Below the pieces are notes generated by a model. That model did not search any database, was not told the origin of the DNA, and was given only the letters and a program-made list of their open reading frames with translations. A program made the translations under genes and the position numbers. A stretch of 28,598 bases of DNA from a virus: IMG/VR virus record IMGVR_UViG_3300009164_003291, positions 1 through 28,598 of that record; one strand, given 5' to 3'. Below are positions 2,909-28,598 of the stretch, piece after piece (position 1 is the first letter of the stretch; each line of letters begins with the position of its first letter).

Positions 2909-2924
2909 AAATAGCACTTTGTTT
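2905..2924 (+). repeat. 20-bp direct repeat, copy 1
   Basis: The first 20 bases of this gene are identical to bases 3690-3709, the start of the next paralogue. The two copies are 785 bases apart in the same orientation, and similarity continues with scattered differences beyond base 20. Recombination between them would remove exactly one gene unit. Confidence 0.85.
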
Positions 2925-3693: not shown

Positions 3694-3709
3694 AAATAGC
3701 ACTTTGTTT
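3690..3709 (+). repeat. 20-bp direct repeat, copy 2
   Basis: Identical to bases 2905-2924. It covers the start codon and first codons of the interrupted paralogue. Confidence 0.85.
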
Positions 3710-10370: not shown

Positions 10371-11895
10371 CACAGTTATTATACCCACTGCTGGACTCGG
10401 CAGTAGGATGGGTAACTATACAAAAAATTTAAACAAGGCTTTATTACCCTATAAAGACAAGCCTGTACTGGCACATATTATAGATAATTTTCCCAGAGAC
10501 ACAAAATTTATTATCCCTGTTGGTTACTTTGCACAACAAATCAAAGATTTTTGTAAAGTTGCGTATGCAGACAGGGATATTACATTTGTTGAGATCTCAG
10601 ATTATACCAGTGACAAAAGTGGCACAGCCACTACAGTAAAACAATGTAAAGATTATATCACAGGTCCATTTTGGTATATTCCCTGTGATACATATTTTAA
10701 CCAAAGCATAACAGATAAAGTCAGCAATGCAGATTGTTATTTTGTTAAAACAGTCAGTGAAAATCAAACGTATCTATATACTATGTTTGATCTGGGCGAC
10801 AACTTTAAAATTAAAAATATAACATTTAAACAACCACAACCAGATACTTGGGCGGCATTTACTGGTGTTAGTTATATCTATAACTGGTCGCAGTTCTTTG
10901 AAAGATTAAGCAATATAACCACAGTGGAGATTATAGACACCATTGAAATTGGCAACGAAACATCGCCACTTAATACTTGGCTAGATTTTGGTAGTCCGGA
11001 AATTTATAAAACAGAATTAACCAAAAGTCAAAAGTTTGACTTTACAAAAACAGATGAACTTACCTACATCTGTAACAACCGTGTTGTAAAATGGTATGCT
11101 GATGCCAGTACAGCTGAAAAGAAATATCGCAAAACATTGGCCAATCCCAGAGTCTGCCCAGACAATTGCACGTATAGTAACAGTTTTATGGCCTATGACT
11201 TCTTTGACGGGGAGGTATTGTATGATTTCAATAATCCCGTGATGTTCAATGACATGTTAACTTGGTTGCACAATGAAGTATGGATCAAACACTCAGATAT
11301 TAACATAGAAGCAGCCGCTGTTGAATTTTACAAGACAAAATCTCTGTCAAGAATAGGTAAATTCCTTGAAAAGCACACTGACCTGCCCGTTATTAATTTT
11401 GTAGATGGTGTGCCCGTAAAAGACTACAAATATTATCTAGATAAAATAGACTGGGATTATTTGACTAAAACTAATTTACCAGGATTTATTCACGGAGATT
11501 TACATTTTGATAATACTGTTATCAATAACAAAGGCGAGTTTAAGATCATTGATTGGCGCCATGAGTTTGCGGGACTAGTTGAGTACGGTGATATCTATTA
11601 TGATTTAGCTAAGATGAGCGGTGGATTCGTTATTAACTACGCTAACATTAAGAATCACAATTTCAATATAGAAATCAATGACGATCACGTTACATTAAGT
11701 GTACCCAGTGTTGATAATATAACAATATATCAAAAGAAACTTAAGAAATACATAGATGACAACGGGCTTGATTATAGGAAAGTACAGACGTTGATACCTA
11801 TAATCTTTTGGAACATGAGCCCATTGCACACTGCGCCATTTGATATATTCCTGTGGTACCTGGGAATTAAACTATTTGCGGAGTTGGAACAATGA
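10354..11895 (+). CDS. Bifunctional nucleotidyltransferase / APH-family kinase
   Basis: A 513-residue fusion. Residues 1 to about 230 form a sugar-phosphate or choline-phosphate nucleotidyltransferase: IIPTAGLGSRMG holds the G-x-G-x-R loop (G14, G16, R18), followed by NKALLPYKDKPVL with K28, and an IPCDTYF segment. The C-terminal part is an aminoglycoside-phosphotransferase or choline-kinase fold: HGDLHFDN (H380, catalytic D382, N387) and IIDWRHE with metal-binding D400. The combination suggests phosphorylation of a small alcohol or sugar followed by coupling to an NTP, as in LicA/LicC-type or kinase-pyrophosphorylase pathways. The ATG at 10354 places the nucleotide loop at the expected distance; a TTG at 10339 is less likely. 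It overlaps the next gene by ATGA. Confidence 0.85.
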   Translation: MTQLSNTVIIPTAGLGSRMGNYTKNLNKALLPYKDKPVLAHIIDNFPRDTKFIIPVGYFAQQIKDFCKVAYADRDITFVEISDYTSDKSGTATTVKQCKDYITGPFWYIPCDTYFNQSITDKVSNADCYFVKTVSENQTYLYTMFDLGDNFKIKNITFKQPQPDTWAAFTGVSYIYNWSQFFERLSNITTVEIIDTIEIGNETSPLNTWLDFGSPEIYKTELTKSQKFDFTKTDELTYICNNRVVKWYADASTAEKKYRKTLANPRVCPDNCTYSNSFMAYDFFDGEVLYDFNNPVMFNDMLTWLHNEVWIKHSDINIEAAAVEFYKTKSLSRIGKFLEKHTDLPVINFVDGVPVKDYKYYLDKIDWDYLTKTNLPGFIHGDLHFDNTVINNKGEFKIIDWRHEFAGLVEYGDIYYDLAKMSGGFVINYANIKNHNFNIEINDDHVTLSVPSVDNITIYQKKLKKYIDDNGLDYRKVQTLIPIIFWNMSPLHTAPFDIFLWYLGIKLFAELEQ

Positions 11896-13933: not shown

Positions 13934-14086
13934 ATGTCTAATAATAATCAAGACGATAAAGCTAAAAACGAAGCCCCTGAAGTTGAACGAGAGTTAACTC
14001 CTGAGGAACGTGAACAAAAACAAAAAGAACTATTGGAAAAGCGACTAGCTGAACTTCGTCGTAGAGATCCATTTATTTACAAATGA
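13934..14086 (+). CDS. Small charged helical protein, 50 residues
   Basis: A short gene starting one base after the previous stop; its TGA overlaps the carbamoyltransferase start as ATGA. The tight junctions on both sides argue that it is real. The product is very rich in Glu, Lys, Arg and Gln, with a predicted long helix over roughly residues 18-43 (TPEEREQKQKELLEKRLAEL), and ends RRRDPFIYK. It has no Cys, signal peptide or membrane segment. I do not recognise the family. Its position just before the carbamoyltransferase suggests a small partner or adaptor for that enzyme. Confidence 0.75.
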   Translation: MSNNNQDDKAKNEAPEVERELTPEEREQKQKELLEKRLAELRRRDPFIYK

Positions 14087-15555
14087 ACATTTGGGGAATT
14101 AGTGCCAATAGTCATGACGCGGCGATTAGTGTCTGGCACGATAAACAAATACAATTTGCCGCGCACAGTGAACGCTATAGTGGTATAAAGAACGATGGTG
14201 ATTTATGCGCTGGCCTAATCGAGGAAGCACATACCCATGGTGCTCCGGATCTTATTGTATGGTATGAAAATCCACTAAAGAAAACAGCACGCCAGTTTTA
14301 TGCTGGGCAGGGCTTAAAGTGGAAAGAAAATGACATTAAACAGTATCTTGCTGGATACGGCTTAACGCAAAAAGTTGTCTATGAACAACATCACAAGAGT
14401 CATGCCGCCGCAGGATATTACACCAGTGGATTCAAGGATGCAACAGTAGTTGTCATTGACGCCATTGGTGAATTTGAAACGCTGACAGTATGGTCTGGTG
14501 ACGGTAATAACTTAAAACAAGTATACAGTCAAGGTTATCCTGACAGCGTGGGACTTTGGTTCAGTGCTATGACACAGCGCATTGGATTAAAGCCCAATGA
14601 AGAAGAATATATTCTTATGGGCATGGCCGCTTATGGTGATCCAGAGAAATATAAACAAGACATTTATAATGACTTATTCAAATCCATTAAAGGTCCTAAA
14701 ATTAAGTTTAAACACAACTTACACAGAGGATGTTTATGGTGGCGTAATGATTTATTAACAGATCAAGACTACTTTGACATCGCTGCCGCCACGCAACAGA
14801 TATACACAGAATTATTGCAGGGCATTAGTCGTTGGGCAAGAGTACAGTTGCCCAGTGAGAACATTGTATTAATGGGTGGTTGTGCGCTAAATTGTGTGGC
14901 TAATAGTACAATAACAGGTGACTGGAAAAATGTTTGGATCATGCCTAACCCTGGTGATGCAGGTAGTAGCATTGGTGCAGTTGCCGCACACATAGGCGAA
15001 CAGGTAAATTGGCCCGGAGCCTATCTTGGCACAGACATGGGCAAGGAATATCCAGTTGAACAAACTATTGACATACTTAAAACAGATAAAATTGTTGGTG
15101 TGGCTTCGGGTAGAGCAGAGTTCGGTCCCCGAGCTCTTGGCCACCGCAGTTTATTGGCAGACCCTCGTGGTCCCAATATCAAAGACACAGTCAACGCAAT
15201 TAAACGTAGACAAAAATTCAGACCGTTTGCACCAGCAATCCTAGAAGAATACGTGCATGAATATTTCGAAATGCCCGAGGGCATCACTGCCAGTCCATTC
15301 ATGCAATTTACTGCTAAATGTAAACGGCCCGACGAGTTCCCTGCAATTATACATGCAGATGGAACAAGCCGTGTACAAACAGTTAGTAAAACTGACAGTC
15401 CTGGTTTCCGCAAGTTACTGGAAGATTGGCACAGCGAAACTGGTTGCCCGATATTATTGAACACCAGTTTGAATATCAAAGGTCAGCCCATGGTCAATAA
15501 TTTGGCTGATGCGGTTGCATTTACTGAAAAATACAACGTTCCAGTGTTGAGTTAA
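14083..15555 (+). CDS. Carbamoyltransferase, NodU/TobZ/CmcH family
   Basis: A 490-residue enzyme expected to move a carbamoyl group from carbamoyl phosphate, via carbamoyl-AMP, to a hydroxyl acceptor. The N-terminal Kae1-like domain has NSHDAAISV and HHKSHAAA (H103, H104, H107), VIDAIGEFET, ILMGMAAYG, and GGCALNCVANS. The C-terminal domain has GRAEFGPRALGHRSLLADPR (from G343), KRRQKFRPFAPA and LLNTSLNIKGQP. It is somewhat shorter than typical NodU or TobZ proteins but keeps all these blocks. The acceptor could be a sugar in the glycan pathway. Related phage enzymes have been linked to carbamoylation of 5-hydroxymethylcytosine in DNA, which cannot be excluded. Confidence 0.92.
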   Translation: MNIWGISANSHDAAISVWHDKQIQFAAHSERYSGIKNDGDLCAGLIEEAHTHGAPDLIVWYENPLKKTARQFYAGQGLKWKENDIKQYLAGYGLTQKVVYEQHHKSHAAAGYYTSGFKDATVVVIDAIGEFETLTVWSGDGNNLKQVYSQGYPDSVGLWFSAMTQRIGLKPNEEEYILMGMAAYGDPEKYKQDIYNDLFKSIKGPKIKFKHNLHRGCLWWRNDLLTDQDYFDIAAATQQIYTELLQGISRWARVQLPSENIVLMGGCALNCVANSTITGDWKNVWIMPNPGDAGSSIGAVAAHIGEQVNWPGAYLGTDMGKEYPVEQTIDILKTDKIVGVASGRAEFGPRALGHRSLLADPRGPNIKDTVNAIKRRQKFRPFAPAILEEYVHEYFEMPEGITASPFMQFTAKCKRPDEFPAIIHADGTSRVQTVSKTDSPGFRKLLEDWHSETGCPILLNTSLNIKGQPMVNNLADAVAFTEKYNVPVLS

Positions 15556-15574: not shown

Positions 15575-15580
15575 ATGCTA
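15568..15580. repeat. Perfect 13-bp inverted repeat over a start codon
   Basis: TAGCAT and ATGCTA flank a central A at 15574, and the right arm contains the start codon of the gene at 15575. It could be a protein-binding half-site pair or chance. The loop is too short for a stable RNA hairpin. Confidence 0.35.
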
Positions 15581-16321
15581 GATGTATTTTTTCTCAGTTA
15601 CAACGAACCCTACGCCGACGAGCACTACGAGCTTTTACTTCAAAAGGCTCCACATGCTCGTCGTGTTCATGGTGTCAAGGGATTTGTGGAAGCACACCGA
15701 GAATGTGCTAGGCAAAGTATGACATATAATTTTTATGTTGTTGACGCAGATGCTTTATTGGTTGAGGATTTCGATTTTAGTTATACCCCCAGCAAATATA
15801 ATTATTGGTGGCAGGGTGTTCCAGAAAGTGAATGTCTAACTGTATGGAGCAGTATCAATCCAATTAATAACTTGACATATGGCTACGGAGGTGTTAAACT
15901 AATACCGAAGATACCGCTACTTAGAAAAAACAAGGACACTATTGACTTCAGCACAGGCTTTGGATTACCGTTCAAAGTATTTGACAGGGTTAGTAATATA
16001 ACTGCTTTCAACTACGATGAATTTAATACTTGGCGAAGTGCTTTTAGAGAGTGTACTAAATTGGCATCCAACCTCACAAACAAGGATATGGAATCGTCAG
16101 ATGACATGGACTATGATGAGATTGGGCGACAACGTGCTATAACAAGACGCCGCCTTAATACATGGTGTACTGTGGGTGAGGATAAATTGTTTGGCAAGTA
16201 TGCCATAGACGGTGCAAGGCGTGGTAAGATATTCGGTGAGGAAAATATTAAAAATCCTGAAACACTGAAACAGATTAATGATTATGAATGGATAAAAAAT
16301 GAGTTTACTAGATTCTTTTGA
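15575..16321 (+). CDS. Glycosyltransferase-like protein, VDAD family
   Basis: A 248-residue protein starting FFLSYNEPYAD and containing RRVHGVKGF, YVVDADALLVEDF with the DxD-type motif near residues 52-56, NPINNLTYGYGGVKL, FNTWRSAFRE, and a DGARRG segment near the end. All these blocks recur in the products of 16299 and 17300 and partly in 1-795. The start is fixed because the conserved FLSYNEP block begins at residue 6. It overlaps the next gene by 23 bases. A cytoplasmic glycosyltransferase is inferred from the DxD motif; donor sugar unknown. Confidence 0.75.
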   Translation: MLDVFFLSYNEPYADEHYELLLQKAPHARRVHGVKGFVEAHRECARQSMTYNFYVVDADALLVEDFDFSYTPSKYNYWWQGVPESECLTVWSSINPINNLTYGYGGVKLIPKIPLLRKNKDTIDFSTGFGLPFKVFDRVSNITAFNYDEFNTWRSAFRECTKLASNLTNKDMESSDDMDYDEIGRQRAITRRRLNTWCTVGEDKLFGKYAIDGARRGKIFGEENIKNPETLKQINDYEWIKNEFTRFF

Positions 16322-17306
16322 AATTAAACACAAACAAGATATGACATTAAGTCTTGGCGATATCCCAGTGGTATTTTTAAGCTATGATGAACCAAATGCA
16401 GATACTAATTTTGAACACCTCAAAAAGTATCATCCCAACAAGCATATTATTCACAGAGTGCATGGTGTCAAGGGTTTTGATGCCGCACACAAAGAAGCGG
16501 CAAGAGTAGCGAACTCGGATAGATTCTTTACTGTTGATGCAGACTGTTTAGTTGATAAAACTATTTGGCACAAACAACTAGAGATAACCAGCGACATAAG
16601 TGCCGCAACATTCAGTTGGAGTAGCCGTAATATAGTTAATGGCCTAGTCTACGGCAACGGTGGCATCAAGTTGTGGTACAGTGAATATGTCAACACCATG
16701 AAAAGTCATGAGGCAGCAGACAAAGAAGATAATAAGAATAACATAGATTTTTGCTGGGACTTTGATAATTATAAGCAGATGAACAATACCTATGGTACTG
16801 TTATGAATAACGCAACACCCTATCAGGCATTCCGTGCGGGCTTTAGGGAAGGCATTAAGATGGGCTTGGATCAAGGACATAAAGTAGACCCCGAAGAATT
16901 TAATTGTAAGATGTATCCAGCAAATTATAGTCGCTGGCTAACTTGGATGACTGTGGGTCGTGATGTTGAAAATGGCGTATGGTGTATCTACGGTGCTAGA
17001 CTTGCAACAATGATGTTATACGTTGAAAACTTTGATCATACATTAGTCGCTGACTATGATTGGTTTTTAAAGTTATGGGACGAAGTAAACATAGACACGG
17101 ACTCCGGCAAGTACGTTGAAGATAAAGCACATAAGCTGTTAATAGACATACGTGACAAATTAAAACTACCTTTGGTTGAACTAGACGCCAGTCAAAGTGA
17201 ATGGTTCAAGCATGTTAATATTTGTCCAGGCAAAGGAACAAACTGGCCCACGTTATTAAACTATAGCGCATTGCCCTTATTTGGATTTAAGCTACCAGAA
17301 TGGTAA
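16299..17306 (+). CDS. Glycosyltransferase-like protein, VDAD family, long form
   Basis: A 335-residue protein with VVFLSYDEPNAD, HRVHGVKGFDAAH, FFTVDADCLVDK (VDAD at residues 79-82), NIVNGLVYGNGGIKLW, AFRAGFREGIK and GARLA. It is the closest relative in the window of the truncated gene at 1-795, sharing its long C-terminal extension. The annotated ATG at 16299 overlaps the previous gene. An ATG at 16341, giving MTLSLGDIPVVFLSY, would fit the paralogues' shorter N-termini and is a fair alternative. It overlaps the next gene by 7 bases. Confidence 0.75.
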   Translation: MSLLDSFEIKHKQDMTLSLGDIPVVFLSYDEPNADTNFEHLKKYHPNKHIIHRVHGVKGFDAAHKEAARVANSDRFFTVDADCLVDKTIWHKQLEITSDISAATFSWSSRNIVNGLVYGNGGIKLWYSEYVNTMKSHEAADKEDNKNNIDFCWDFDNYKQMNNTYGTVMNNATPYQAFRAGFREGIKMGLDQGHKVDPEEFNCKMYPANYSRWLTWMTVGRDVENGVWCIYGARLATMMLYVENFDHTLVADYDWFLKLWDEVNIDTDSGKYVEDKAHKLLIDIRDKLKLPLVELDASQSEWFKHVNICPGKGTNWPTLLNYSALPLFGFKLPEW

Positions 17307-17983
17307 TCCCTATTTACTTTCTCTATTCCCAGGAAGCGAACATGAACGAGAACTGGGAAAGACTACAGGAAAAAGCTCCTAATGCAGAAGCAGTGGCCAG
17401 CACGGGTACTATATTTGAAAGCCACAAACACATTGCAGATCGATGCACTGCTGATAGATTCTATGTAGTGGATGCAGATTGTTGGATTGTGGATAAGTTT
17501 AATTTTGACACCAAGATAGAATTAACACCAAAGAGTGTAGCAGTGTTTCGTGCAAAGAATCCCATCAATGGTCTGGTATATGGACACGGTGGTATTAAAC
17601 TATTCAGTAAAGATTGTTTCAGCGTAGAACGACTGGATCGTCCGGACATGACAACCACACTGGCTGACAGTTATATCAAAGTAAATGTCCTTGCCAGTGA
17701 GCATAGATTCAATTACACGGCATTTAGTACATGGCGCACAGCATTCAGAGAAGCAATCAAGTTGAGTGCTGGTATAAACAAAAATAATAATGCTCAGGAA
17801 GACACTCAACGTCTGGATATGTGGCTTAATGCAGGACTAGAAGCACGATATGGATATTTTTGTGTAGAAGGTGCAAGACAGGGTATCGCATATACAAAAA
17901 CTGCGGACTACGATCACGCAGTAGTGAATAATTTTGATTGGTTGCGTAATAGATTCGTAGAATGGACAGGTCTAAATGAGTAA
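17300..17983 (+). CDS. Glycosyltransferase-like protein, VDAD family, short form
   Basis: A 227-residue protein with YFLYSQEAN at the N-terminus (a variant of FLSYNEP), FYVVDADCWIVDKF, NPINGLVYGHGGIKLF, NYTAFSTWRTAFREAIKL and EGARQG. It is most like the product of 15575 in length and C-terminal blocks. The three consecutive VDAD genes are joined by overlaps and followed at once by a methyltransferase-like gene, suggesting coordinated sequential action on one product. The start lies in a 7-base overlap with the upstream gene, and conserved sequence begins directly after it. Confidence 0.75.
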   Translation: MVIPIYFLYSQEANMNENWERLQEKAPNAEAVASTGTIFESHKHIADRCTADRFYVVDADCWIVDKFNFDTKIELTPKSVAVFRAKNPINGLVYGHGGIKLFSKDCFSVERLDRPDMTTTLADSYIKVNVLASEHRFNYTAFSTWRTAFREAIKLSAGINKNNNAQEDTQRLDMWLNAGLEARYGYFCVEGARQGIAYTKTADYDHAVVNNFDWLRNRFVEWTGLNE

Positions 17984-18842
17984 TGAAGATCAAACGAGTT
18001 GGTTGTTTGGACTTGAAAAATTCTTTGAGTTTACGGGACAAAAAGACAAACGCGAACTTGTAAAAAATATGATTAGAATGATTCATTCTAATGACAAGGA
18101 TAAGCTATGGGCATTAAAAAATTGCATAGCCAATGACTATGAAAAATTCAAGGTAGAAAATAGAGATCTGCGCTTGGGGCTGTATGTTGAATTATTACAG
18201 CAACAACGTATAAGTCATACTGCTCTTTTTTGGTTAATGAACGATATATGGGCAGATGATTTTAGCAGTAAACTGCATTTATTTTTTAATAATTCTTCTG
18301 TTAGTACAGCCAATGATCTTTTTAGTAAGAGTCAAGTATTAAGTAAAATATGGATGGCGGAGACATTGCAAAAGTTTGTGCCCAATCTAGGAAACGTGGC
18401 ATTGTTTGGTGGCTGGTATGCACAGCACATGTATTATTTAGATAACTTGTCATTTAAGCAGGTATTAAACATAGATATGGACACAGATGTACTTGTGCAA
18501 TCTAATAATATATTAGGATCACCCAACAACTATAAAACGCTGTCTGCAGATGTTAACTCTGTGATACAAGATGGTAAAATTGTTCTGGAAGACGTTGAGT
18601 TCGATCCAGATTTAGTTATAAACACCAGCGCAGAACACATGTCCACCGAATGGTTTGATAAGTTGGCCCTGGGCCAAATGATATTATTACAAACCAATGA
18701 CATGTTGGGCATGGAAGGTCACATAAATTGTTGCACAACACTGGAAGATGTAAAATCAAAATATACTATGCGCCAAGTATTATTTGCAGGAGAACTTACT
18801 CTTAGTAAGGGTAAGCGATTTATGTTGTTTGGAATAAAATAA
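17976..18842 (+). CDS. Class I SAM-methyltransferase-like protein
   Basis: A 288-residue protein. The first 130 or so residues are helical and charged. A Rossmann-like half follows: VALFGGWYAQ (G145-Y148) in the position of the SAM-binding glycine loop, then VLNIDMDTD (D167, D169) as the acidic end of the second strand. VINTSAEHMSTEWF (N216-M222) and ILLQTND come later. A GGWYG plus NTSxEHM pattern occurs in methyltransferase-like proteins of phages and bacteria whose substrate is unknown. Glycine content at the SAM loop is lower than classic, so activity is not certain. It ends directly against the next gene with no spacer. Confidence 0.6.
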   Translation: MSNEDQTSWLFGLEKFFEFTGQKDKRELVKNMIRMIHSNDKDKLWALKNCIANDYEKFKVENRDLRLGLYVELLQQQRISHTALFWLMNDIWADDFSSKLHLFFNNSSVSTANDLFSKSQVLSKIWMAETLQKFVPNLGNVALFGGWYAQHMYYLDNLSFKQVLNIDMDTDVLVQSNNILGSPNNYKTLSADVNSVIQDGKIVLEDVEFDPDLVINTSAEHMSTEWFDKLALGQMILLQTNDMLGMEGHINCCTTLEDVKSKYTMRQVLFAGELTLSKGKRFMLFGIK

Positions 18843-20015
18843 ATGTATAAAGCCAGTGAGATAACCACAGTACACCTAGAAGTTACAGAACGATGTAATG
18901 CAAGTTGCCCACAATGTGCTAGGAATTTAAATGGCGGTGAAGTAAACCCACAGTTACATGATGCTGAACTAAGTTTAGATGATGTTAAACAAATACTAAA
19001 GCCCGAGTTCATTAAACAGTTAAATCGCTTATATATGTGCGGTAATTACGGAGACCCAATAAGCGCACGTGATACACTGGAAATATTTGAATATGTTCGC
19101 GGCCACAATGCTAAAATGCAACTTAGCTTTCACACAAATGCCAGTGCTAAAACTCCTGAGTGGTGGAGCAAGTTGCCTGCTGCCATGGGCAAGAGTCATT
19201 ACGTAGTGTTCAGCTTGGACGGTTTAGAAGACACTAATCACTTGTATCGTCAAGGTACAGTATGGAAAAAGATAATGGAAAATGCACAAGCATTTATTGC
19301 CGCAGGTGGTAGAGCACGTTGGGACTACATAGTATTTGGACACAATGAACATCAAGTTGAAGAAGCTAGGGCGTTAGCAACTAGCATGGGCTTTGAAAAG
19401 TTCAATGTAAAGAAATCAAATAGATTCTTTAGCAACACACGCGGCGCAGTTAAAGCAGAACATCAAGCAGGTAATAGAAAAGGCGCAGAGACTACATTAA
19501 TAAGTATGCCAAAAAATCCCGAATATCAAAATGCCGCACTAAAACAACTGGAAAGTCTAAGCAAAGACAAGGGAGCCCTTAACATAGATTTTTTAACCAC
19601 AGTTGCTGAACTGGAAGGCAGATTGGGCAGCCAAAAGTTTAATTCAGATCCTGCTGACAAAAAAGACATGGAAAAATACTGGGATACAGTGCCCATTAAA
19701 TGTAAAGTTGCCGAAGAAAAAAGCATTTATATCACAGCAGAAGGATACTTGCAGCCATGTTGCTGGACAGCCGGACAAATGTATGTCTGGTATTGGAAAC
19801 AACGTGGTGGACAAATATGGAAAGCCATTGATGAGGTGGGTTTAGATACACTAGATGTTAAGAATAATGATTTAGCTGATGTTATCAATGGTAGATATAT
19901 GCAAGAAGTAATCCCAGATAGTTGGGATAAACCCAGTTGCTCAGATGGCAAGCTGGCAGTATGTGCCAAGACATGTGGCACTAAATATGATGCATTCAAG
20001 GAACAATTCAAATGA
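18843..20015 (+). CDS. Radical SAM protein with C-terminal SPASM/twitch-type domain
   Basis: A 390-residue enzyme. The core motif CNASCPQC lies at C18, C22 and C25, with GNYGDP in the place of GGEP and FSLDGL further on. The C-terminal domain carries cysteines C287, C306/C307, C366, C374 and C378, consistent with one or more auxiliary Fe-S clusters. This is the classical arrangement, with auxiliary cysteines after the core, unlike the N-terminal arrangement of the five twitch-first paralogues. It is the best intact reference for the split pair at 22087/22730. The substrate is unknown; SPASM enzymes modify peptides, sugars or alcohols. Confidence 0.88.
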   Translation: MYKASEITTVHLEVTERCNASCPQCARNLNGGEVNPQLHDAELSLDDVKQILKPEFIKQLNRLYMCGNYGDPISARDTLEIFEYVRGHNAKMQLSFHTNASAKTPEWWSKLPAAMGKSHYVVFSLDGLEDTNHLYRQGTVWKKIMENAQAFIAAGGRARWDYIVFGHNEHQVEEARALATSMGFEKFNVKKSNRFFSNTRGAVKAEHQAGNRKGAETTLISMPKNPEYQNAALKQLESLSKDKGALNIDFLTTVAELEGRLGSQKFNSDPADKKDMEKYWDTVPIKCKVAEEKSIYITAEGYLQPCCWTAGQMYVWYWKQRGGQIWKAIDEVGLDTLDVKNNDLADVINGRYMQEVIPDSWDKPSCSDGKLAVCAKTCGTKYDAFKEQFK

Positions 20016-20764
20016 CACCGCAAGAATATAACAGTTTTTTAAAAAGAAGAAACACGTCAAAAGTTTTCACTGACGATAAATTAACCTTACAGCAACGACA
20101 ATTTATTATTGATGCAGTTAATTTTGCACCTGCACAAAACTCAAATAGAAATTTTATACCTATTCTTGTTGAAAAGCCTGAACACAAGGAATGGTTACAG
20201 GACAACATATTTTTTATGGTTTCTAAGTATAGCGAGTCGCTGGGCAGAGTAATGCCCAAAGAATATCAGCTTGGTATATTAACTGCACCTGCTGTGGTAA
20301 TATATTTGGAAGCATCAAGAAGTCTCCCTATAGTAAATCATCCCAGTAATCTAGATGCAGATGGTTCGTATTTAAAAGAGCCAGCCGCCGGAGATATAGA
20401 TATAAGAAACATCAATATAGGAATGAACATGGCATTCGTGGCCCAACAAGCATATTTGCTGGGACTGGATGTTGGATTCAACGGTTGTACTCGTGGTGTC
20501 AGGAACGTCATGGAAACGCCTGAGCTAAAGGCTCACTTATATTCTATATACAATGAATATGGAATCACAGACGATATGGCACACAAACATTGGTTGTCGC
20601 CGGGTTATGCAGTATGCATAGGAAAAGCTCTTCCTATCGCCAATCCTATGATGATAGTTGCTAAAGAAGATTTAGAAGGTTTGCCATATAAGGATGGTTA
20701 TTATACAAATATTAAAAAACATAAATTGAATGCCTTTGAAAATATTAGAGTAATCAATGAATAA
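20012..20764 (+). CDS. Nitroreductase-like flavoprotein
   Basis: A 250-residue protein. LKRRNTSKVFTDDKLT at the N-terminus fits the RRSxRxF flavin-phosphate-binding pattern of the nitroreductase family, followed by DAVNFAPAQNSNRNF (APxxxN block). A central helix, NIGMNMAFVAQQAYLLGLDVGFNGC, matches the family's ALGLGxxxxG region. A late PGYAVCIGKAL strand resembles the conserved xxGxP end block. Such proteins bind FMN and use NAD(P)H; some act on natural-product intermediates. It sits between two radical SAM genes and overlaps both (ATGA upstream, 8 bases downstream), suggesting a redox step or electron supply in the same pathway. Confidence 0.65.
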   Translation: MTPQEYNSFLKRRNTSKVFTDDKLTLQQRQFIIDAVNFAPAQNSNRNFIPILVEKPEHKEWLQDNIFFMVSKYSESLGRVMPKEYQLGILTAPAVVIYLEASRSLPIVNHPSNLDADGSYLKEPAAGDIDIRNINIGMNMAFVAQQAYLLGLDVGFNGCTRGVRNVMETPELKAHLYSIYNEYGITDDMAHKHWLSPGYAVCIGKALPIANPMMIVAKEDLEGLPYKDGYYTNIKKHKLNAFENIRVINE

Positions 20765-22094
20765 AGATTTTGACAAATATGATAAAGTACCCGGCAATTT
20801 TTGCCTTGTGCCTTTTCTACATAAAGCAATAGATGGCAATGGAGATATAAATCCATGCTGTATTGCTGACCCACATAAAATGAGTGATGGCAAAAATGCC
20901 AACATTAACTTCATTGACTTTGATACTTTCATCAAATCAAAAGAAAACAACGACTTCAAAGAAGCATTTAAACGCAATGAACGTCCTGATATATGTCATA
21001 GATGCTGGAAAGTAGATGATCATCAAGGCGAAAGTCATCGTAAACGTGTTATGACTTTCTTTATGAACAAAAGCTGGGAAGGCGGCGAAACTGACTTATA
21101 TAAACAGTTAGAAGGTTTCTTTGCAGATAAAACACAGTGGCAAGATGTTGTAATAGAATTAGATAAAATAAAAGAGCCCATGGATCTGGAAATAGAACCA
21201 GGGACAACCTGTAATTTTAAATGCCACTTCTGTGGCCCACATGCAAGTAGTAGCTGGATCAGTGATCAGAAAGAATTATATGGTACCAGTCAAGAAGAAG
21301 CTGCCAGAGCAACTAAGCTAGGACACTGGGCATTAGATAGTGAACTGTGGAACAGTGAAGTAATGTTCAATGGTAAAAAGTTTCACTTCATGGGCGGTGA
21401 ACCCATGTTGATTAATGCACATTTTAAATTTTTAGCCAAGTTAGCCGAGCGTCCCGACGCCGCACAAGTACGTATGTCATATAATACCAACGCCAGTACA
21501 TTGCCGCCAGAAAATGTATTAAAAACAGTCTATGACAAGTTCTACTATACACGAGTTGCATTTAGTATCGACGGCATAGGTGACAAGTTTCACTATCAAC
21601 GTTTTCCCGGCGACTGGGCAGAAGCAGAAGCCAACATGGAAACATGGGTTACAAATGTTAAAAACATAGAAGCTAAAATAGATCCTGGTTGGAGTATTCT
21701 TAATATGTTGGACATGGCAGAATTATTCTTATGGGCAGATAAGTTTAAGCGTAAGTTTAATTTAAGTGACAAACAATTTGACTTTGACGGGCATTATTAC
21801 TTTGGCCCTCATTATTGCCCACAGAGTTTAAAACCAGAACAAAAAGAATATTTTAAGAATAAAATGAGCAATGATTTATCATTGTTACGTAACAGTAATT
21901 TAACACCTCGTATGATGGAACGATCTGAAATTATCGTTGACAATATGATTAACCATATGATGGCCAAAGACTCTTGGAATCAGGAGACTGAAGAACTGCG
22001 TAAATATAGAATAATGGGTCTCGATAGAATTCGCAAACAAACCCTTAAAGATTACTTACCAGAATTAAATTCAGTTTTAAAATATTATGATTGA
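20757..22094 (+). CDS. Radical SAM protein with N-terminal twitch-type domain
   Basis: A 445-residue protein. N-terminal cluster ligands are C16 (FCLVPF), the C34/C35 pair (INPCC) and C80/C83 (CHRCW). The radical SAM core begins near residue 145 with CNFKCHFC (C152, C156, C159) and FMGGEPML at G213-P216. The C-terminus has LDRIRKQTLKDYLPEL, a variant of the RxTxFxxTFPE tail. The order of domains matches the twitch-domain radical SAM family rather than classical SPASM enzymes. Its ATG is inside the end of the nitroreductase-like gene, and it overlaps the next radical SAM gene by 8 bases. Confidence 0.87.
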   Translation: MNKDFDKYDKVPGNFCLVPFLHKAIDGNGDINPCCIADPHKMSDGKNANINFIDFDTFIKSKENNDFKEAFKRNERPDICHRCWKVDDHQGESHRKRVMTFFMNKSWEGGETDLYKQLEGFFADKTQWQDVVIELDKIKEPMDLEIEPGTTCNFKCHFCGPHASSSWISDQKELYGTSQEEAARATKLGHWALDSELWNSEVMFNGKKFHFMGGEPMLINAHFKFLAKLAERPDAAQVRMSYNTNASTLPPENVLKTVYDKFYYTRVAFSIDGIGDKFHYQRFPGDWAEAEANMETWVTNVKNIEAKIDPGWSILNMLDMAELFLWADKFKRKFNLSDKQFDFDGHYYFGPHYCPQSLKPEQKEYFKNKMSNDLSLLRNSNLTPRMMERSEIIVDNMINHMMAKDSWNQETEELRKYRIMGLDRIRKQTLKDYLPELNSVLKYYD

Positions 22095-22728
22095 TCCTAG
22101 ACATTTAGAATTAGAAATAACCAGCAAATGTACAATATTTTGCCCCGAATGTCCTCGAACAAAGGACCCCGACGAAAAACTACACAAATGGAAATACGGC
22201 GAAGTAGACATTGCGGTCATCGAAAAAATAATGCAAGTGCCAACTATTCAGAAGGTCATCTTTTCCGGTGCATATGGTGATCCTATATATCATTCAAAAT
22301 TTATTGAAATAGTTGAAATTGTAAAAAAAGCCGGTAAACAAATAACTGTAAACACCAATGGCAGTTATAGAAATGCAGCTTGGTGGCAGAGATTGGCTCC
22401 TGTATTTGCCGAAGAAGATCTATTTGTGTTCAGTATAGACGGTTTGCCCGGCAAAGACTTATATAGAATAAATTCAGACTGGCCTAGTATTGAAACAGGA
22501 ATTAAAATCATGACAGAACATTCCCCTGCTGGTGTGCAGTGGAAATGGATAATTTTCAAACACAATGAAAATGATGGGATAGAGGGATACAAATTAAGTA
22601 AACAGTTGGGCATGAACGAATTCTTAATGGTTGGCAGTGGGAGACCGTACCCACCTGGTTACAAACCTGATAGAACTCTGGAAGAAGTAACCAATGAATT
22701 AAATAATTACATACAAGGACAACTATAA
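22087..22728 (+). CDS. Radical SAM core protein, lacking its C-terminal cluster domain
   Basis: A 213-residue radical SAM protein. Motif CTIFCPEC lies at C15, C19 and C22, with GAYGDP and FSIDGLPG. It follows the product of 18843 closely but ends at TAA (22726-22728), where that protein would continue into its auxiliary-cluster domain. The next gene, one base downstream in another frame, begins with just such a domain. Either the enzyme is naturally two subunits or an indel has split one gene. The core motif is intact. Confidence 0.8.
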   Translation: MIDPRHLELEITSKCTIFCPECPRTKDPDEKLHKWKYGEVDIAVIEKIMQVPTIQKVIFSGAYGDPIYHSKFIEIVEIVKKAGKQITVNTNGSYRNAAWWQRLAPVFAEEDLFVFSIDGLPGKDLYRINSDWPSIETGIKIMTEHSPAGVQWKWIIFKHNENDGIEGYKLSKQLGMNEFLMVGSGRPYPPGYKPDRTLEEVTNELNNYIQGQL

Positions 22729-22729
22729 A

Positions 22730-23398
22730 ATGCAACTAGATCCTGAATGCTATAAATCCAAAAATCTTTTCTTTATACGAGCAAACGGTAATTACTCTCC
22801 TTGCTGTTATACCAGCGCCAACGATCAATTAGAAAAATTTCTAGGTGAGGAATTATACAGCCAACTAAATTTAACTAATTACTCCTATGAAGAAGTAACA
22901 AATTCACAGGCCTGGACCGCGATAAGAGCAATGGTGAAATCGGATAATCCACTGCCAATTTGCTCTTTGTTATGTGCCAAGCGTGAACCTGGTAATGCAA
23001 GGGTAGATATGATTAATAATAAAAGGGTATCGTTCATTAATGTTATGAAACAATTCGATGAAGAATTTAAATTATATGCATATAAAAAGTATGATATTAA
23101 TGATCTAAGTTTGCGTGTAAACACTAACTTTGTCTTAACTTATCGACTTACGCACGACGAAATGAAACAAATATTTGCTGGTGCGAGTACCAGAGAGGGT
23201 ATTAATTTGCATTTGAAATGCGGTGTAAAAATGTATGTTGTTATTAAGCGCAATATATCTGCTGTGCGTTTTACAATTAATACACATGGAGGTAACTTTA
23301 ATCTGCGTTTTTCAATAGAATCATTTTACGGTCTAATGGCAGATTATAATTTCCAAATGGAGAATAACGTCAAATGGGATGACTATGACCCAAGGTAA
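22730..23398 (+). CDS. Stand-alone SPASM/twitch-type cluster domain protein
   Basis: A 222-residue protein. Its first 85 residues look like the auxiliary-cluster domain of the radical SAM protein at 18843: LDPECYKSKNLFFIRANGNY with C7, then the C25/C26 pair (SPCCYT), then C78 and C82. The spacing C7-C25 is close to C287-C306 in that protein. The remaining 130 or so residues, rich in strand-like segments, match nothing I recognise. There is no CxxxCxxC core. It is read in a different frame from the radical SAM core one base upstream and probably completes it, as partner subunit or as the broken half of one gene. Confidence 0.7.
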   Translation: MQLDPECYKSKNLFFIRANGNYSPCCYTSANDQLEKFLGEELYSQLNLTNYSYEEVTNSQAWTAIRAMVKSDNPLPICSLLCAKREPGNARVDMINNKRVSFINVMKQFDEEFKLYAYKKYDINDLSLRVNTNFVLTYRLTHDEMKQIFAGASTREGINLHLKCGVKMYVVIKRNISAVRFTINTHGGNFNLRFSIESFYGLMADYNFQMENNVKWDDYDPR

Positions 23399-24260
23399 AG
23401 ATGTCATCTATGTCAATGGAGATAGCTTTACCGAAGGCTGTGACATTGCGGATCATTTGTATCCTAACTTTAACAAAAATTATAGTTCAAATGAATTATT
23501 GGCTATACCTTTTAAACAAGCAATACAAAATCAATTAACCAGTCTCCAGGAAAAAGCGGAGTTTAGTCAAAAGTATCCAGTGGAAAATTCAGGATTTATT
23601 GCATATGAACGAACACTGCGATGGAGTTCTATATTAGAAACTATATTAAATAGGCCCGTGCTCAATTTATCTTCAAAAGGCGGCAGTAGTATGTATGCCA
23701 TTGTTTATAAGACTATAGCAGATGTTGTTGCTTTAAAAGATCAAGGTTATAATATAACAGATATAATTATTCAAATTACCGCCGGCGGGAGATTTGATAT
23801 TTTTAAAAATACAGAAGATTACGAAGAACCACCTGGACAGTCGAATATTCTTAGATATAATATCATGTCTGCAAATAGGTATATGAGTAAGTATAAAGAT
23901 ATGATGGAACAGATCTTATCACATGAAACTTTTGAATATAACGATTACAGAGTATTACATGATATGTTCATGTTGAAACATGCCTTGACTGCATTGACTA
24001 ATGCAAGAATTATATTTGTAGACAGCTTGTTTTACAAAAAAACATTAAGCGGTGATAAATTTTTTACGTTAAAAAACTGTAATGTATCTGATGACATGCA
24101 TGTTGTAAAATTTAAAAAACAACTGGATCAAGAAATCGAACTTGGTATGTTGGAATGTGTAGAGCCTGATGAACCAGAAACAATGACAACCGGCATGCAC
24201 TTTACTGCCAAAGTTCATGAATTATTTGCTAAAAAAATAGTAGAAAGATATTTTCAATGA
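23379..24260 (+). CDS. SGNH/GDSL-hydrolase-like protein (GDS type)
   Basis: A 293-residue protein. VNGDSFTEGCDIAD is block I with S16, NLSSKGGSSMYAI the block II position, IQITAGGRFDIF the block III region, and GMHFTAKVHELFA the C-terminal His pair H274/H280. It is a close tandem paralogue of the next gene, sharing the block I extension with xxDIAD. ATGs at 23379 and 23385 are both possible starts; either overlaps the previous gene. Its stop overlaps the next start as ATGA. Acyl-ester hydrolysis or transfer is inferred from the superfamily. Confidence 0.75.
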   Translation: MTMTQGKDVIYVNGDSFTEGCDIADHLYPNFNKNYSSNELLAIPFKQAIQNQLTSLQEKAEFSQKYPVENSGFIAYERTLRWSSILETILNRPVLNLSSKGGSSMYAIVYKTIADVVALKDQGYNITDIIIQITAGGRFDIFKNTEDYEEPPGQSNILRYNIMSANRYMSKYKDMMEQILSHETFEYNDYRVLHDMFMLKHALTALTNARIIFVDSLFYKKTLSGDKFFTLKNCNVSDDMHVVKFKKQLDQEIELGMLECVEPDEPETMTTGMHFTAKVHELFAKKIVERYFQ

Positions 24261-25225
24261 AAGACGTTATATATGTTAATGGATGTAGTTTTACGCACGG
24301 AGAAGACATAGCCGACTACATTTTAGATGGCTATGCGGATATAGCACCTGAGCTAACATTTAATGAGGTAAAACATTGTTTTAACAATGATTTGGCTGTG
24401 GATAAGGTAACTGATTATTTAAATTGGAGGCAGCCAAAATATGAAGAACTTGTTCCAAACAAAGACAAATTAAATTTTGCCGGCGCAGTTACTAGATTAC
24501 GTGAAAAAATAAATTGGTCTGCAATATTAGCAGACATTACCAATACCACAGTTATCAACAAATCTTCACCGGGATGTAGTAATTATAGTATCTATCTACG
24601 AACATGCAACGATATATATAATTTAAAAAAACAAGGAATAGATGTTAAAAAAGCAATAATTCAATTCACTTGCAGAACAAGACATGCCTATATAAAAGAA
24701 ATTAAGTGGGATTCTTATAATATATACAGACCAGCCTTAATAGATAATAATAAATTAGATGATGCATTTTTTGTTAGGTCGTTAAATCATGGAAGCAGTA
24801 AGTATGATAATTATTCTGTGGCTGAAAAATTATTCCTAGATACAGACAATTATATGGCATTGGAAGTTGATATGTGGGTAAATTCCAGATTATTAAATTA
24901 TCTATCAACAATAAACATGTATAAAAATGCAATACAGGGTGCATTGGGTATAGAAGTGATAATGGTGGATTCTCTATTTTTTGAAATGGAGTCCACTACA
25001 GCCATGGAAGGAAATGAACATATCGAACAGAATATTGATATTGATAATCCAGATCCCGATACATATTTAGGTAGAACCATACTGTCATTATTTCCCAATG
25101 GTTTTGATTCTATGGGAAGAATGATGGATAGAGATCAAAAAGCATTCACTCCTGGATTTCATTTTACTAAAGAAGTACATGAGAAGTTTGCAAAACATTT
25201 AGCAAAGAAATATTTCAATGAATAA
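24257..25225 (+). CDS. SGNH-hydrolase-like protein (GCS variant)
   Basis: A 322-residue protein, tandem paralogue of the gene upstream. VNGCSFTHGEDIAD is block I with S11 and Cys instead of Asp, NKSSPGCSNYSIYLR the block II position, IQFTCRTRHAYI the third block, and GFHFTKEVHEKFA gives H302/H308. The change from GDS to GCS between two adjacent duplicates shows that this substitution arises within close relatives. It overlaps the radical SAM gene downstream by 8 bases. Confidence 0.75.
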   Translation: MKDVIYVNGCSFTHGEDIADYILDGYADIAPELTFNEVKHCFNNDLAVDKVTDYLNWRQPKYEELVPNKDKLNFAGAVTRLREKINWSAILADITNTTVINKSSPGCSNYSIYLRTCNDIYNLKKQGIDVKKAIIQFTCRTRHAYIKEIKWDSYNIYRPALIDNNKLDDAFFVRSLNHGSSKYDNYSVAEKLFLDTDNYMALEVDMWVNSRLLNYLSTINMYKNAIQGALGIEVIMVDSLFFEMESTTAMEGNEHIEQNIDIDNPDPDTYLGRTILSLFPNGFDSMGRMMDRDQKAFTPGFHFTKEVHEKFAKHLAKKYFNE

Positions 25226-26486
25226 AACATTTTGTGTAATTCCCTGGGTGCAAATGGCAGCAAAACCCATAGGAACTGCCAGGGTTTGTTGCCTAATGAC
25301 TAATAGCAAGGACAGTCAGCAAGGTACAATAAGGGACAGTGCAGGAAAACCCTACAATCTTGGACGAGATGATTTCGACATCATTAAAAATGGTGACAAG
25401 GCACGTGAAATAAGATTGTCCATGCTGGCAGGTGAACGTCACAGTGACTGTAGTACATGCTGGGTCAAAGAAGACATGGGCGCAAGTAGTCGTAGAACTG
25501 TGAGCAATAAGATGTATCTGGGAGAGTTTGATGAAGATATAGCCAGAGCACATACTGATGAACATGGCAACACAGATTGGCAACCTAGCTATTGGGATCT
25601 ACGCTTTGGTAATTTATGTAACTTAAAATGTGTAATGTGTCACCCTGCTAGTAGTAGTCAGTGGTATGAAGATTATGTATTAATAAATGGTACAACCAAG
25701 TTCACGGACAGTGGCACAAAAATTAACTTAACAGACGTCAATGGTAGATACAAGGATGCCGGTGAATATGACTGGTGGGACAATCCAGAGTTTTGGGCTA
25801 AACTAGAAGCAAAGATACCTTATTTAAAACAAGTATATCTTGTTGGCGGTGAACCCATGCTTATTGAACCGCACTATGATTTTTTACAAAAAGTAATTGA
25901 CAGTGGCCGAGCTCACGAAGTTACCCTGGAATATGATACAAATTTAACTGCTATACATAAACGAGCACTGGATCTGTGGAAACATTTTAAAAAGGTATGG
26001 TTACGTATTAGCATAGATGATTTTGGTGATCAGTTTGAATATATTCGCTATCCAGCTAGATGGCAACAGATAAGTAAGAATGTAGAAACATTAAGTAAAG
26101 AAATGTCTAATATTAAAATGGATTTCACTGTTACATGGCAAGTTTTGAGTGCTTACACAACTCCAAATCTATTAGACTATTTTGAACAGTTTGAAAAACA
26201 CAATTCAAGTGTTAGGATTTTAAGTAGTCCTGACTATTTTGATGTAGCGATACTTCCCAAAGAAGTCAAGCAAGACATTTTAAATGTGTACAATGACTGG
26301 GCAACCACTGATAAAAAGAAAAAACAAATAGCACACCTTGTAAATTATATTGAATCGAATCTAGACGGAGATGACATCAAGGTTGAACGTTGCATACAAA
26401 TACTTACAAAATTGGACTCTATTAGAAACACAGACTGGAAGACAACCTTCCCGCAATTATATGAAAAGCTAAAAAATGAACGATAA
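25218..26486 (+). CDS. Radical SAM protein with N-terminal twitch-type domain
   Basis: A 422-residue protein. The N-terminal domain starts FCVIPW (C6), then the C24/C25 pair, then CSTCW (C78, C81). The radical SAM motif is CNLKCVMC (C134, C138, C141), with LVGGEPML at G210-P213 preceded by NPEFW. The tail reads LDSIRNTDWKTTFPQL. It is most like the product of 26476: both have YIRYP followed by a Trp a few residues on, and an LRFG segment just before the core cysteines. It is the first of three consecutive genes of this family. Confidence 0.88.
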   Translation: MNKTFCVIPWVQMAAKPIGTARVCCLMTNSKDSQQGTIRDSAGKPYNLGRDDFDIIKNGDKAREIRLSMLAGERHSDCSTCWVKEDMGASSRRTVSNKMYLGEFDEDIARAHTDEHGNTDWQPSYWDLRFGNLCNLKCVMCHPASSSQWYEDYVLINGTTKFTDSGTKINLTDVNGRYKDAGEYDWWDNPEFWAKLEAKIPYLKQVYLVGGEPMLIEPHYDFLQKVIDSGRAHEVTLEYDTNLTAIHKRALDLWKHFKKVWLRISIDDFGDQFEYIRYPARWQQISKNVETLSKEMSNIKMDFTVTWQVLSAYTTPNLLDYFEQFEKHNSSVRILSSPDYFDVAILPKEVKQDILNVYNDWATTDKKKKQIAHLVNYIESNLDGDDIKVERCIQILTKLDSIRNTDWKTTFPQLYEKLKNER

Positions 26487-27966
26487 AGTTATACTTGACG
26501 AAAACGGCAACGACATTAGTCAATGGTTTGTTAATAAACACAAAGACCACAATCTTAAAACAAAGCATTACTTTAATGTCAGTAAAACTTGGTGTATATT
26601 GCCTTGGATCCATTTGAGTACTCGCCCGGATGGTCAGATGCGTGTGTGTTGTACGGCCAATGCTAGTTCAGTGGGTGCAACCAATGATAAAATACATGGT
26701 GGAAATATTGGTATTTTAAAAGACGAAGAAGGTCGTCCTAATAACTTGAACGTTGCTGACTTTGAATCTAGCTGGAACAGTACATATATGAAAAATGTAC
26801 GATCACAGATGATAGCAGGCGAAAAACCCTCCAGTTGTTTGAAGTGTTACAAAGAAGAAGCCGCAGGCCATAGAAGCAAACGTCAGTGGGAAACAGAATA
26901 TTGGAGTAAGCGAGTAAGCATCGACGAGCTCATACAAGAAACAAATGCAGATGGTAGCATACCTCCCAAGCTACGTTATATCGATTTGCGTTTTGGAACA
27001 AAATGTCAGTTAGCCTGTATCATGTGTAGCCCACATGACAGTAGTGGATGGATCAAAGACTGGCAAGCAGTTTACCCTAAAATTGAAAACGAAAAAGTAA
27101 AAGAGATTTGGAACTGGGAAAACAAGGGCAGTACCAATGGTAGTAGCTATAATTGGCACAAGAACAACCCTGTATTCTGGGAACAGTTTTATCAACAGAT
27201 TCCTCACATGAAGCAGTTATACTTTGCTGGTGGTGAAGCATTAATCATTGAAGAACACTATGATATTCTGGAAGAATGTATACGTCAAGGTGTTGCTAAA
27301 GACATGGAAATACGTTATAATAGCAATGGTATAGAGTGGAGAGAAGACTTATTTGAATTGTGGAGTCACTTTAAACTTGTACGTTTCCATTACAGTGTTG
27401 ATGCATTTGGCGCACACAACGAATATATTCGCTACCCCAGTGAATGGAAACGCACAGAAGAAGTATTTCATATATTAGATACACAGACAACTGATAACGT
27501 TGAAGTTACAGTGGCCTGTGCAGTTAATGCATTGAACATACATTACTTGCCTGAATTTATTAAGTGGAAAATGACACAAAACTTTAAGAAGATTAACATG
27601 TGGCCCTTGGGCGCAGGTGGTATTAACTTCCACTTTGTGTACTGGCCAGCATTCTTAAATGTTAAAGTTCTTCCTAAGAAATTTAAAGATGAGGTCGCAC
27701 GTAAAATAGAGGAAGAACTAATCCCATGGTGGACTGACAACTATATGAACGGAGTTAGAAAAGGTGAAACATTGGATAAAGATGTATTCCTTATGAATGA
27801 CTACGGTATTAAACGTTTGCGTGGATTAATTAGATTCATGCAAAGTCAGGACTGGAGTGTGCGCTTGCCTGAAATGAAAGAATATTTAGAAAAACTAGAT
27901 CAACATCGCGGCACTAGCTTTTACGAAACATTCCCTGAAATGAAAGATATTTTCAACGATGTCTGA
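26476..27966 (+). CDS. Radical SAM protein with N-terminal twitch-type domain, GGEA variant
   Basis: A 496-residue protein, the longest of the family here. It has a 35-residue N-terminal extension before TWCILPW (C40), then the C58/C59 pair, then CLKC (C121, C124). The core is CQLACIMC (C177, C181, C184). The SAM-contacting motif reads AGGEAL (G252-A255), so the usual Pro of GGEP is Ala; the Glu is kept. NPVFW precedes it as in its relatives, and the tail is LDQHRGTSFYETFPEM. It overlaps the upstream gene by 11 bases and the downstream gene by 8. Confidence 0.87.
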   Translation: MNDKVILDENGNDISQWFVNKHKDHNLKTKHYFNVSKTWCILPWIHLSTRPDGQMRVCCTANASSVGATNDKIHGGNIGILKDEEGRPNNLNVADFESSWNSTYMKNVRSQMIAGEKPSSCLKCYKEEAAGHRSKRQWETEYWSKRVSIDELIQETNADGSIPPKLRYIDLRFGTKCQLACIMCSPHDSSGWIKDWQAVYPKIENEKVKEIWNWENKGSTNGSSYNWHKNNPVFWEQFYQQIPHMKQLYFAGGEALIIEEHYDILEECIRQGVAKDMEIRYNSNGIEWREDLFELWSHFKLVRFHYSVDAFGAHNEYIRYPSEWKRTEEVFHILDTQTTDNVEVTVACAVNALNIHYLPEFIKWKMTQNFKKINMWPLGAGGINFHFVYWPAFLNVKVLPKKFKDEVARKIEEELIPWWTDNYMNGVRKGETLDKDVFLMNDYGIKRLRGLIRFMQSQDWSVRLPEMKEYLEKLDQHRGTSFYETFPEMKDIFNDV

Positions 27967-28598
27967 ACCAGGCAAAATGTCTCTAGTAAAAAAAGACGAA
28001 ATATATAAATGGCTGGATACAAATAATTTCTGTGTCATGCCATTTGGACACATTGCTATAGAATCAAATGGCGATATTCGCCCGTGTTGCTTGGGCAATA
28101 CACTAAAAAAAGACGATGGCACTTCTTTAAATATTGGGAATGGTTCGATAGCAGATATTATAAAACATCCTGCACACATTAAATTTAGAGAAGCATTTAC
28201 TAATAATGAACAGCATCCTGCATGTCACCCATGCTGGGGTGTTAATTCTAAAGATAGATTCAGTGGTAGATATGTATATTCCAGTAGCGTTAAAGTGCAA
28301 AGTTTTGTAGAAGAGGTAATGTCAGGCAAAATGCCAGAGCAGAAACTTGTATGGTTAGAAATAAAAGCAGGTAATAGATGTAATCTAGCATGTAGAATCT
28401 GTGGTCTATGGAACAGCGCAAAATGGCTTAAAGAAACATTTGATTTGAAAAAACTAAATGACCCATCATACCCCGACTTCAAGTCCAGCTTTGAGTTTAA
28501 TTATAACCAACAAGCCAAATGGATTGACAACATAGATTTCTGGCAGAACATTGATATGTTTGAGGATATCAAAGTGATACATATCATGGGTGGGGAAC
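27959..28598 (+). CDS. Radical SAM protein with N-terminal twitch-type domain, 3'-truncated
   Basis: The frame is open from the ATG at 27959, which overlaps the previous stop, to the end of the window. The first 213 residues show FCVMPF (C25), IRPCC (C43/C44), CHPCW (C89, C92), the core motif CNLACRIC (C141, C145, C148), and IDFWQN. It breaks off at HIMGGE, just before the Pro expected in GGEP. By comparison with its neighbours, more than 200 further residues lie outside. It is the fifth twitch-first radical SAM gene and the third in a row. Confidence 0.85.
   Translation, partial: MSEPGKMSLVKKDEIYKWLDTNNFCVMPFGHIAIESNGDIRPCCLGNTLKKDDGTSLNIGNGSIADIIKHPAHIKFREAFTNNEQHPACHPCWGVNSKDRFSGRYVYSSSVKVQSFVEEVMSGKMPEQKLVWLEIKAGNRCNLACRICGLWNSAKWLKETFDLKKLNDPSYPDFKSSFEFNYNQQAKWIDNIDFWQNIDMFEDIKVIHIMGGE

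Follow-up and report, generated by a model that had tools for sequence, protein, structure and literature searches.

Why does a single virus fragment carry seven radical SAM enzymes, and on what would they act? The fragment (the window) is linear and 28,598 bases long. An earlier note on it had described repeated, diverged radical SAM copies in a phage-like glycan locus, which might act on sugars.

Genes of the window

The genes were packed on one strand, and all coordinates given here are on the plus strand. Gaps of more than 10 nt between ORFs of at least 45 aa occurred twice (45 and 19 nt), and none was found past 15.6 kb. A tRNA search of the 28,598 bases found none, and a nucleotide comparison with named phages, using the window as the query, returned no match. 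The ORF calls are mechanical, the E-values and folds are predictions, and the assignments of m, SGNH and SGQ genes are motifs read by eye. Frequencies out of 80 refer to the best 80 (67–96% identity) of 171 relatives of the protein g32 in IMG/VR, which were kept as loci.

Several genes were of sugar type. A sugar-1-phosphate nucleotidyltransferase-like domain was fused to an APH-type kinase domain at 10339..11895 (Pfam APH and NTP_transf_3; NCBIfam Arch_glmU-like, 8e-17, and AglF-like, 3e-13, both below their cut-offs). A NodU/CmcH-type carbamoyltransferase followed at 14083..15555 (Pfam Carbam_trans_C/N; phrog_1601, 2.5e-104). Just upstream of it, a charged ORF of 50 aa ending in RRDPFIYK was seen at 13934-14086; it was dismissed as a widespread small gene, with a family limited to seven loci.

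In relatives, the carbamoyltransferase is followed by genes of a GT-A-like glycosyltransferase family, here called VDAD. The window carried four of them, at 1..795 (5' end cut off), 15575..16321, 16299..17306 and 17300..17983; the family of the second and third was found in 68 of the 80 loci. The protein at 16299 matched Pfam GT2 weakly (3.3e-4, just under the cut-off). The protein at 17300 was modelled with AF2 (pLDDT 88) and compared with the PDB in Foldseek. The 24 matches with E-values up to 0.001 (best 3e-5) were glycosyltransferases, except for the UDP-binding protein majastridin, at modest TM-scores of about 0.3–0.45. From this model, a GT-A glycosyltransferase fold is predicted for VDAD.

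The next gene, m (17976..18842), was conserved in 66 of the 80 loci and looked Rossmann/methyltransferase-like by eye; no Pfam or PHROGs family matched it. A nitroreductase-like protein was encoded at 20012..20764 (PF00881, 2.6e-4, just under the cut-off). Two SGNH-hydrolase-like proteins were assigned by motif only, at 23379..24260 (NGDSFTEG) and 24257..25225 (NGCSFTHG; no Pfam match), both motifs being read directly.

Radical SAM cores

All seven radical SAM cores of the earlier note were recovered, with ORFs at 792, 18843, 20757, 22087, 25218, 26476 and 27959. Pfam PF04055 matched six of the seven, five over the cut-off and 26476 just short of it. The ORF at 27959 is cut by the contig end; it carried CNLACRIC and matched NF033640 at 2.7e-36. 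The CxxxCxxC motif was intact in all seven cores. Among relatives it was found in 281 of 281 N-type, 123 of 124 S-type and 68 of 68 R-type sequences, and in 0 of 281 shuffled N-type sequences.

The earlier note had placed an N-terminal cluster domain in five of the cores, and the same five matched NF033640 (N_Twi_rSAM; curated cut-off 170 bits). By score, g2 (792..2174, 348.5 bits, CNFKCSYC), g26 (20757..22094, 261.5 bits), g31 (25218..26486, 375.2 bits) and g32 (26476..27966, 422.8 bits) were full members of this N-terminal-twitch subfamily. The truncated g33 (27959..28597) matched as a member with 125.5 bits on half a protein. The aligned cysteines were invariant in the five proteins, and 230 of the 281 N-type relatives showed the N-terminal cluster together with CxxxCxxC by pattern.

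A shared C-terminal tail around RxTxFxxTFPE, also claimed before, was borne out in part. It was clear in 792 and 26476 and weaker in 25218 (NTDWKTTFPQ) and 20757 (KQTLKDYLPE), and truncation keeps 27959 from showing it. The tail is no family hallmark, because the strict form occurred in only 29 of the 281 relatives.

The N-type copies of the window shared 21–30% identity with each other and 41–96% with their best relatives outside it. They fell into separate orthologous clades of 69 (g32, the most conserved core member), 26 (g31), 6, 5 and 3 loci, and the description as diverged copies thus holds. The four full-length copies also fell apart in a quick tree with weak deep branches and many long ends, in which five bacterial rows formed one group (support 98) amid phage rows. 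Judged by sequence, the N-type enzymes of the window are old, separate enzymes and not recent duplicates.

The two remaining cores, 18843 and 22087, were of the core-then-SPASM kind, and both passed the PF04055 cut-off. The first, g24 (18843..20015; PF04055, 2.1e-9), had a weak C-terminal SPASM-like match below the cut-off (0.0054), and its family was found in 78 of the 80 loci. The second was split over two genes. A short core, g27 (22087..22728; PF04055, 3.9e-7), was followed by a detached SPASM domain protein, g28 (22730..23398; PF13186, 4.9e-7, over the cut-off), which is its probable partner and was absent from the earlier note. Relatives showed the same split at ~79% identity, so it is no sequencing error.

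SPASM domains encoded apart from a radical SAM core recurred up- or downstream of it (L178:8309-9318; window 22087-23398). In addition, phage N-type enzymes were found fused to a PP-loop-like domain (L063:12556-15039), to a second N-type copy (L001:12760-15309) and to an R-type copy (L010:12176-14242).

A viperin-like defence role was rejected. The best NF038283 score was 37.4 bits against a cut-off of 180, and the best PADLOC pVip score was 34.5 bits, a core similarity below threshold. A search of plasmids with g31 gave no match, and a sequence search of solved structures returned only weak and uninformative core matches to SkfB and NifB/Tes.

Extent of the island in relatives

The phage-like character of the locus was supported by longer relatives. 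Among the best 80 of 171 g32 relatives, 12 of the 15 long contigs carried the T4 capsid gene gp23, which was seen in relatives and not in the window fragment. NF033640 matched at 5 to 17 places in each of the 15 long contigs, counting weaker matches to the core. G001, the closest long relative, has a contig of 172 kb, of which the first 56 kb were covered; radical SAM genes were spread between about 8.3 kb and 54 kb, giving about 16 genes and about 17 cores within 46 kb. The window is therefore a truncated part of such an island. One MAG linked the island to a host, the gammaproteobacterium MED685, and this may be a binning accident.

Loci selected with g32 had a common order: tail-fibre-like genes came first, then a pair of glycosyltransferase-like genes, the VDAD genes, m, a small protein (p5), one S-type radical SAM gene and lastly the N/R-type enzymes. 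The co-occurrence with VDAD that the earlier note had proposed to measure was high, with a radical SAM gene in 41 of 44 VDAD loci of at least 10 kb. With p5 as bait, VDAD was found in 70 of 71 loci, an S-type gene in 65 and an N-type gene in 61. The g32, p5 and VDAD baits come from one collection and overlap, so these are counts of related contigs and not independent.

The same check named the SGQ genes, and here the expectation failed: those at 2177-5376 and 7748-8509 had no relative in any of the 80 g32 loci and were discarded as part of the pathway. Two pieces at 3690-3923 and 3969-4565 resembled the start and tail of one interrupted SGQ-type gene, either a broken gene or an assembly error. 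A theme of Fe-S supply was likewise abandoned. The A-type carrier (PF01521) is no constant companion, because it occurred in only 4 of the 15 long contigs.

The upstream cassette of G001, which matches that of the window, held three NAD-epimerases, an RmlC-type epimerase and TPP-enzyme subunits. On a MAG contig with the same island (L163), ORF 3727-5952 joined a Gfo/Idh domain to a DesII-like radical SAM domain (TIGR04426, 357.7 bits, E 9e-107, below the curated cut-off of 450), upstream of the same series of VDAD, m, p5, S-type and N-type genes. The NDP-sugar genes varied between relatives, with the RmlC-type PF00908 in 2 of 16 records. Glycosyltransferases and NDP-sugar genes were thus found together in a T4-like phage, as in surface-glycan islands. 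The phage island held no recognisable polymerase, flippase or exporter. The earlier description as a glycan locus agrees with the predicted GT-A fold of VDAD, the nucleotidyltransferase/kinase, the carbamoyltransferase and the epimerases of G001.

Bacterial relatives

Samples of 399, 385 and 78 bacterial genomes were searched. Strong NF033640 matches were found in three of the 399 Pseudomonadota genomes (G016, G092 and G127), and a search of the class added one (G760). The matching contigs of G016 look like phage islands. G092 had a tandem row of four N-type enzymes, accompanied by an ABC-2 permease, WbsX, a TylF-type methyltransferase and genes that are rmlC/rmlD-like by eye. One of the four, a full N_Twi enzyme, was fused to ABC_tran and Wzt_C, an O-antigen exporter ATPase with its glycan-binding domain (ORF L175:8579-11089). 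In G127 and G760, N-type genes lay beside GT2, epimerase or methyltransferase genes.

The non-phage contexts of N-type relatives are glycan-like, because all three (G092, G127 and G760) have glycan neighbours. This bacterial evidence is thin, with only three non-phage loci in the three samples. A literature search on radical SAM enzymes with O-antigen or Wzt found nothing relevant.

A proposed surface-glycan island

The enzyme families, the intact catalytic cysteines, the linkage to glycosyltransferases, the T4-like carriers and the glycan context of the bacterial relatives were computed. On this basis, we think it somewhat more probable than otherwise that the window comes from a large T4-like phage infecting aquatic bacteria and belongs to its surface-glycan island, in which the radical SAM series tailors sugars or a growing glycan. 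Sugar-type substrates, as suggested earlier, stay the best guess. Points that weigh against this are the variable NDP-sugar genes, the missing polymerase, flippase and exporter, the small number of bacterial loci and the sub-threshold DesII-like score.

The substrate, reactions, order of steps and destination of the glycan are what we infer, as follows. Sugar genes would supply activated nucleotide sugars, and the GT-A (VDAD) glycosyltransferases would assemble them. Individual radical SAM enzymes would attack unactivated C-H bonds, removing hydrogen from the sugars or from the glycan as it grows; examples of such radical steps would be oxidation, deamination, dehydration and epimerisation. 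The auxiliary cluster, whether N-terminal or C-terminal, may aid electron transfer or substrate binding. The carbamoyltransferase, nitroreductase-like and SGNH-like proteins could add further tailoring. By analogy with other phage LPS/capsule clusters, the glycan would most likely remodel an O-antigen-like surface of the host in infection. Relatives differ in the upstream cassette and in their sets of N-type enzymes, which is consistent with a diversifying surface structure.

The small protein p5 and other explanations

The conserved p5 is a point against a pure sugar model, which does not explain it. It comprises 74 aa, of which 13 were invariant across 25 sequences. We found 542 relatives in IMG/VR and one in the bacterial collection, on a MAG contig that carries this phage island. 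A single copy lay inside the array in 14 of the 15 long contigs (G001–G003 included). No other small ORF was widely conserved: p5 was present in 121 of 165 loci, 80 of which had been fetched with p5 as bait, and the next best in 8. Without this bias, it was present in 48 of 81 loci. In the window, p5 was searched for and is absent, probably since the fragment ends before it; in G001 and G002 it lay about 12 kb downstream of g32, adjoining R-type genes.

The alternative that survives best, and is still unlikely, is that the enzymes act on p5 as a substrate or as a carrier for the product, in the manner of a ribosomal peptide pathway. SPASM enzymes often have peptide substrates. The conservation of p5 within the array speaks for this, as does its position: in 60 of 71 loci, the gene immediately after p5 encodes an S-type enzyme, a detached SPASM domain or a nitroreductase. 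The protein itself speaks against it: the model is a compact all-alpha domain (pLDDT 94), conservation runs over the whole length and there is no flexible core. Moreover, searches of Pfam, NCBIfam, PHROGs and PDB folds returned nothing for p5, and no relative was found in named phages, despite the S-type arrays of Mosig and Campylobacter phages.

A short precursor with a leader and a variable core, as processed by a maturase, was not seen in the window. The earlier statement that there is no peptide precursor gene is therefore true of the window, but longer relatives carry p5 in the array. Relatives beside short peptide precursors had been named as evidence against the earlier reading, and this objection holds in part: the relatives do have a short conserved protein, with a predicted fold unlike that of a typical precursor. 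Because of this predicted fold and the full-length conservation, p5 as a classic precursor was rejected as the default.

A little less likely, the enzymes could modify the virion, either tail-fibre proteins or glycans on them, and alter adsorption. The island adjoins tail-fibre-like genes, and in many relatives it comes after them on the same strand (the Peptidase_G2 match was weak, E 0.0047). The array of phage Mosig lies near annotated tail fibres, and one relative had an Asp/Asn hydroxylase-type gene nearby. However, T4-like phages also keep variable host-surface genes by tail genes, and the glycan genes of pelagimyophages likewise sit by tail-fibre-like genes (PMC7029224, available part), which speaks for the surface-glycan reading. 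In addition, the bacterial relative G092 sits in a polysaccharide export cluster.

Ranking next, and doubtful, p5 could be a phage-specific carrier or acceptor. VDAD enzymes would assemble a glycan on p5, and a series of radical SAM enzymes, up to about 17 of them, would tailor either this glycan or p5. If true, this would amount to a radical assembly line tethered to a protein, for which no counterpart is known.

It is slightly more doubtful that the product of the island is a diffusible secondary metabolite, a small molecule that serves the phage in infection. A second cyanophage cluster with carbamoyltransferases, a methylase and hydroxylases was read as possibly of this kind in the part of PMC7824862 available. 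The nitroreductase and carbamoyltransferase would fit, but a polymer or surface glycan is the better match for the several glycosyltransferase-like genes of most islands and for the Wzt fusion.

Hypermodification of phage DNA bases, in whose pathways radical SAM enzymes, glycosyltransferases and carbamoyltransferases are known, is very improbable, as a homologue of the usual entry enzyme, thymidylate synthase/hydroxymethylase (PF00303), was found in only 2 of the 15 long contigs, some incomplete, and the bacterial relatives sit in glycan contexts.

No reaction is assigned to the NF033640 subfamily of radical SAM enzymes, and the surface-glycan reading suggests glycans as their class of substrate. 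It offers g31, g32 and the Wzt-N_Twi fusion as concrete test proteins. It further suggests unexplored radical chemistry on sugars, accompanied by a conserved small protein, in aquatic phages that are common but uncultured.

Comparison with known systems

Two papers, of 2017 and 2020, had described T4-like marine phages rich in radical SAM genes and read these genes as Fe-S metabolism or surface-region cassettes (PMC5332604, PMC7029224). The T4-like environmental genome TARA_ERS488813_N000010 has 12 radical SAM genes, interpreted as Fe-S metabolism (PMC5332604), and radical SAM cassettes were noted in the host-recognition region of pelagimyophages (PMC7029224). The view that the pathway is not described must therefore be narrowed: such phages had been reported, but the available parts of both papers link these enzymes to no glycan pathway. 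The phages of PMC5332604 are likewise T4-like and large, with many radical SAM genes, and are perhaps the same kind of phage. They are likened by description only, and the enzyme subfamily, the glycan context and p5 are absent from that description as far as available.

The LPS/capsule clusters of cyanophages and pelagimyophages likewise combine variable sugar and glycosyltransferase genes, those of pelagimyophages near tail genes (PMC7824862, PMC7029224). In the available parts of these sources, multi-copy N-twitch enzymes are not described, and PMC7824862 reports phage sugar clusters and a carbamoyltransferase cluster with no mention of radical SAM.

DesII (TIGR04426), a sugar radical SAM ammonia-lyase, performs radical chemistry on an NDP-sugar, and the related island L163 encodes a DesII-like protein. 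In contrast, the enzymes of the window had no DesII model match, and no DesII-like gene was found there.

Among named phages, Campylobacter phage CP220 (L083) has six radical SAM genes in a row, accompanied by one amidinotransferase-like gene and two genes of nucleotide-diphospho-sugar transferase type. Pelagibacter phage Mosig has such a row with carbamoyltransferase and nitroreductase genes. These arrays share with the window only S-type enzymes of about 26% identity, and the named-phage collection, both phages included, held no VDAD or p5 relatives. The NF033640 label is the name of a subfamily over whose separate clades the copies of the window are spread. Against these systems, what appears to be new is the enzyme subfamily, the extent of the array, the module that it forms with VDAD and p5, and the fusion to Wzt in a bacterium.
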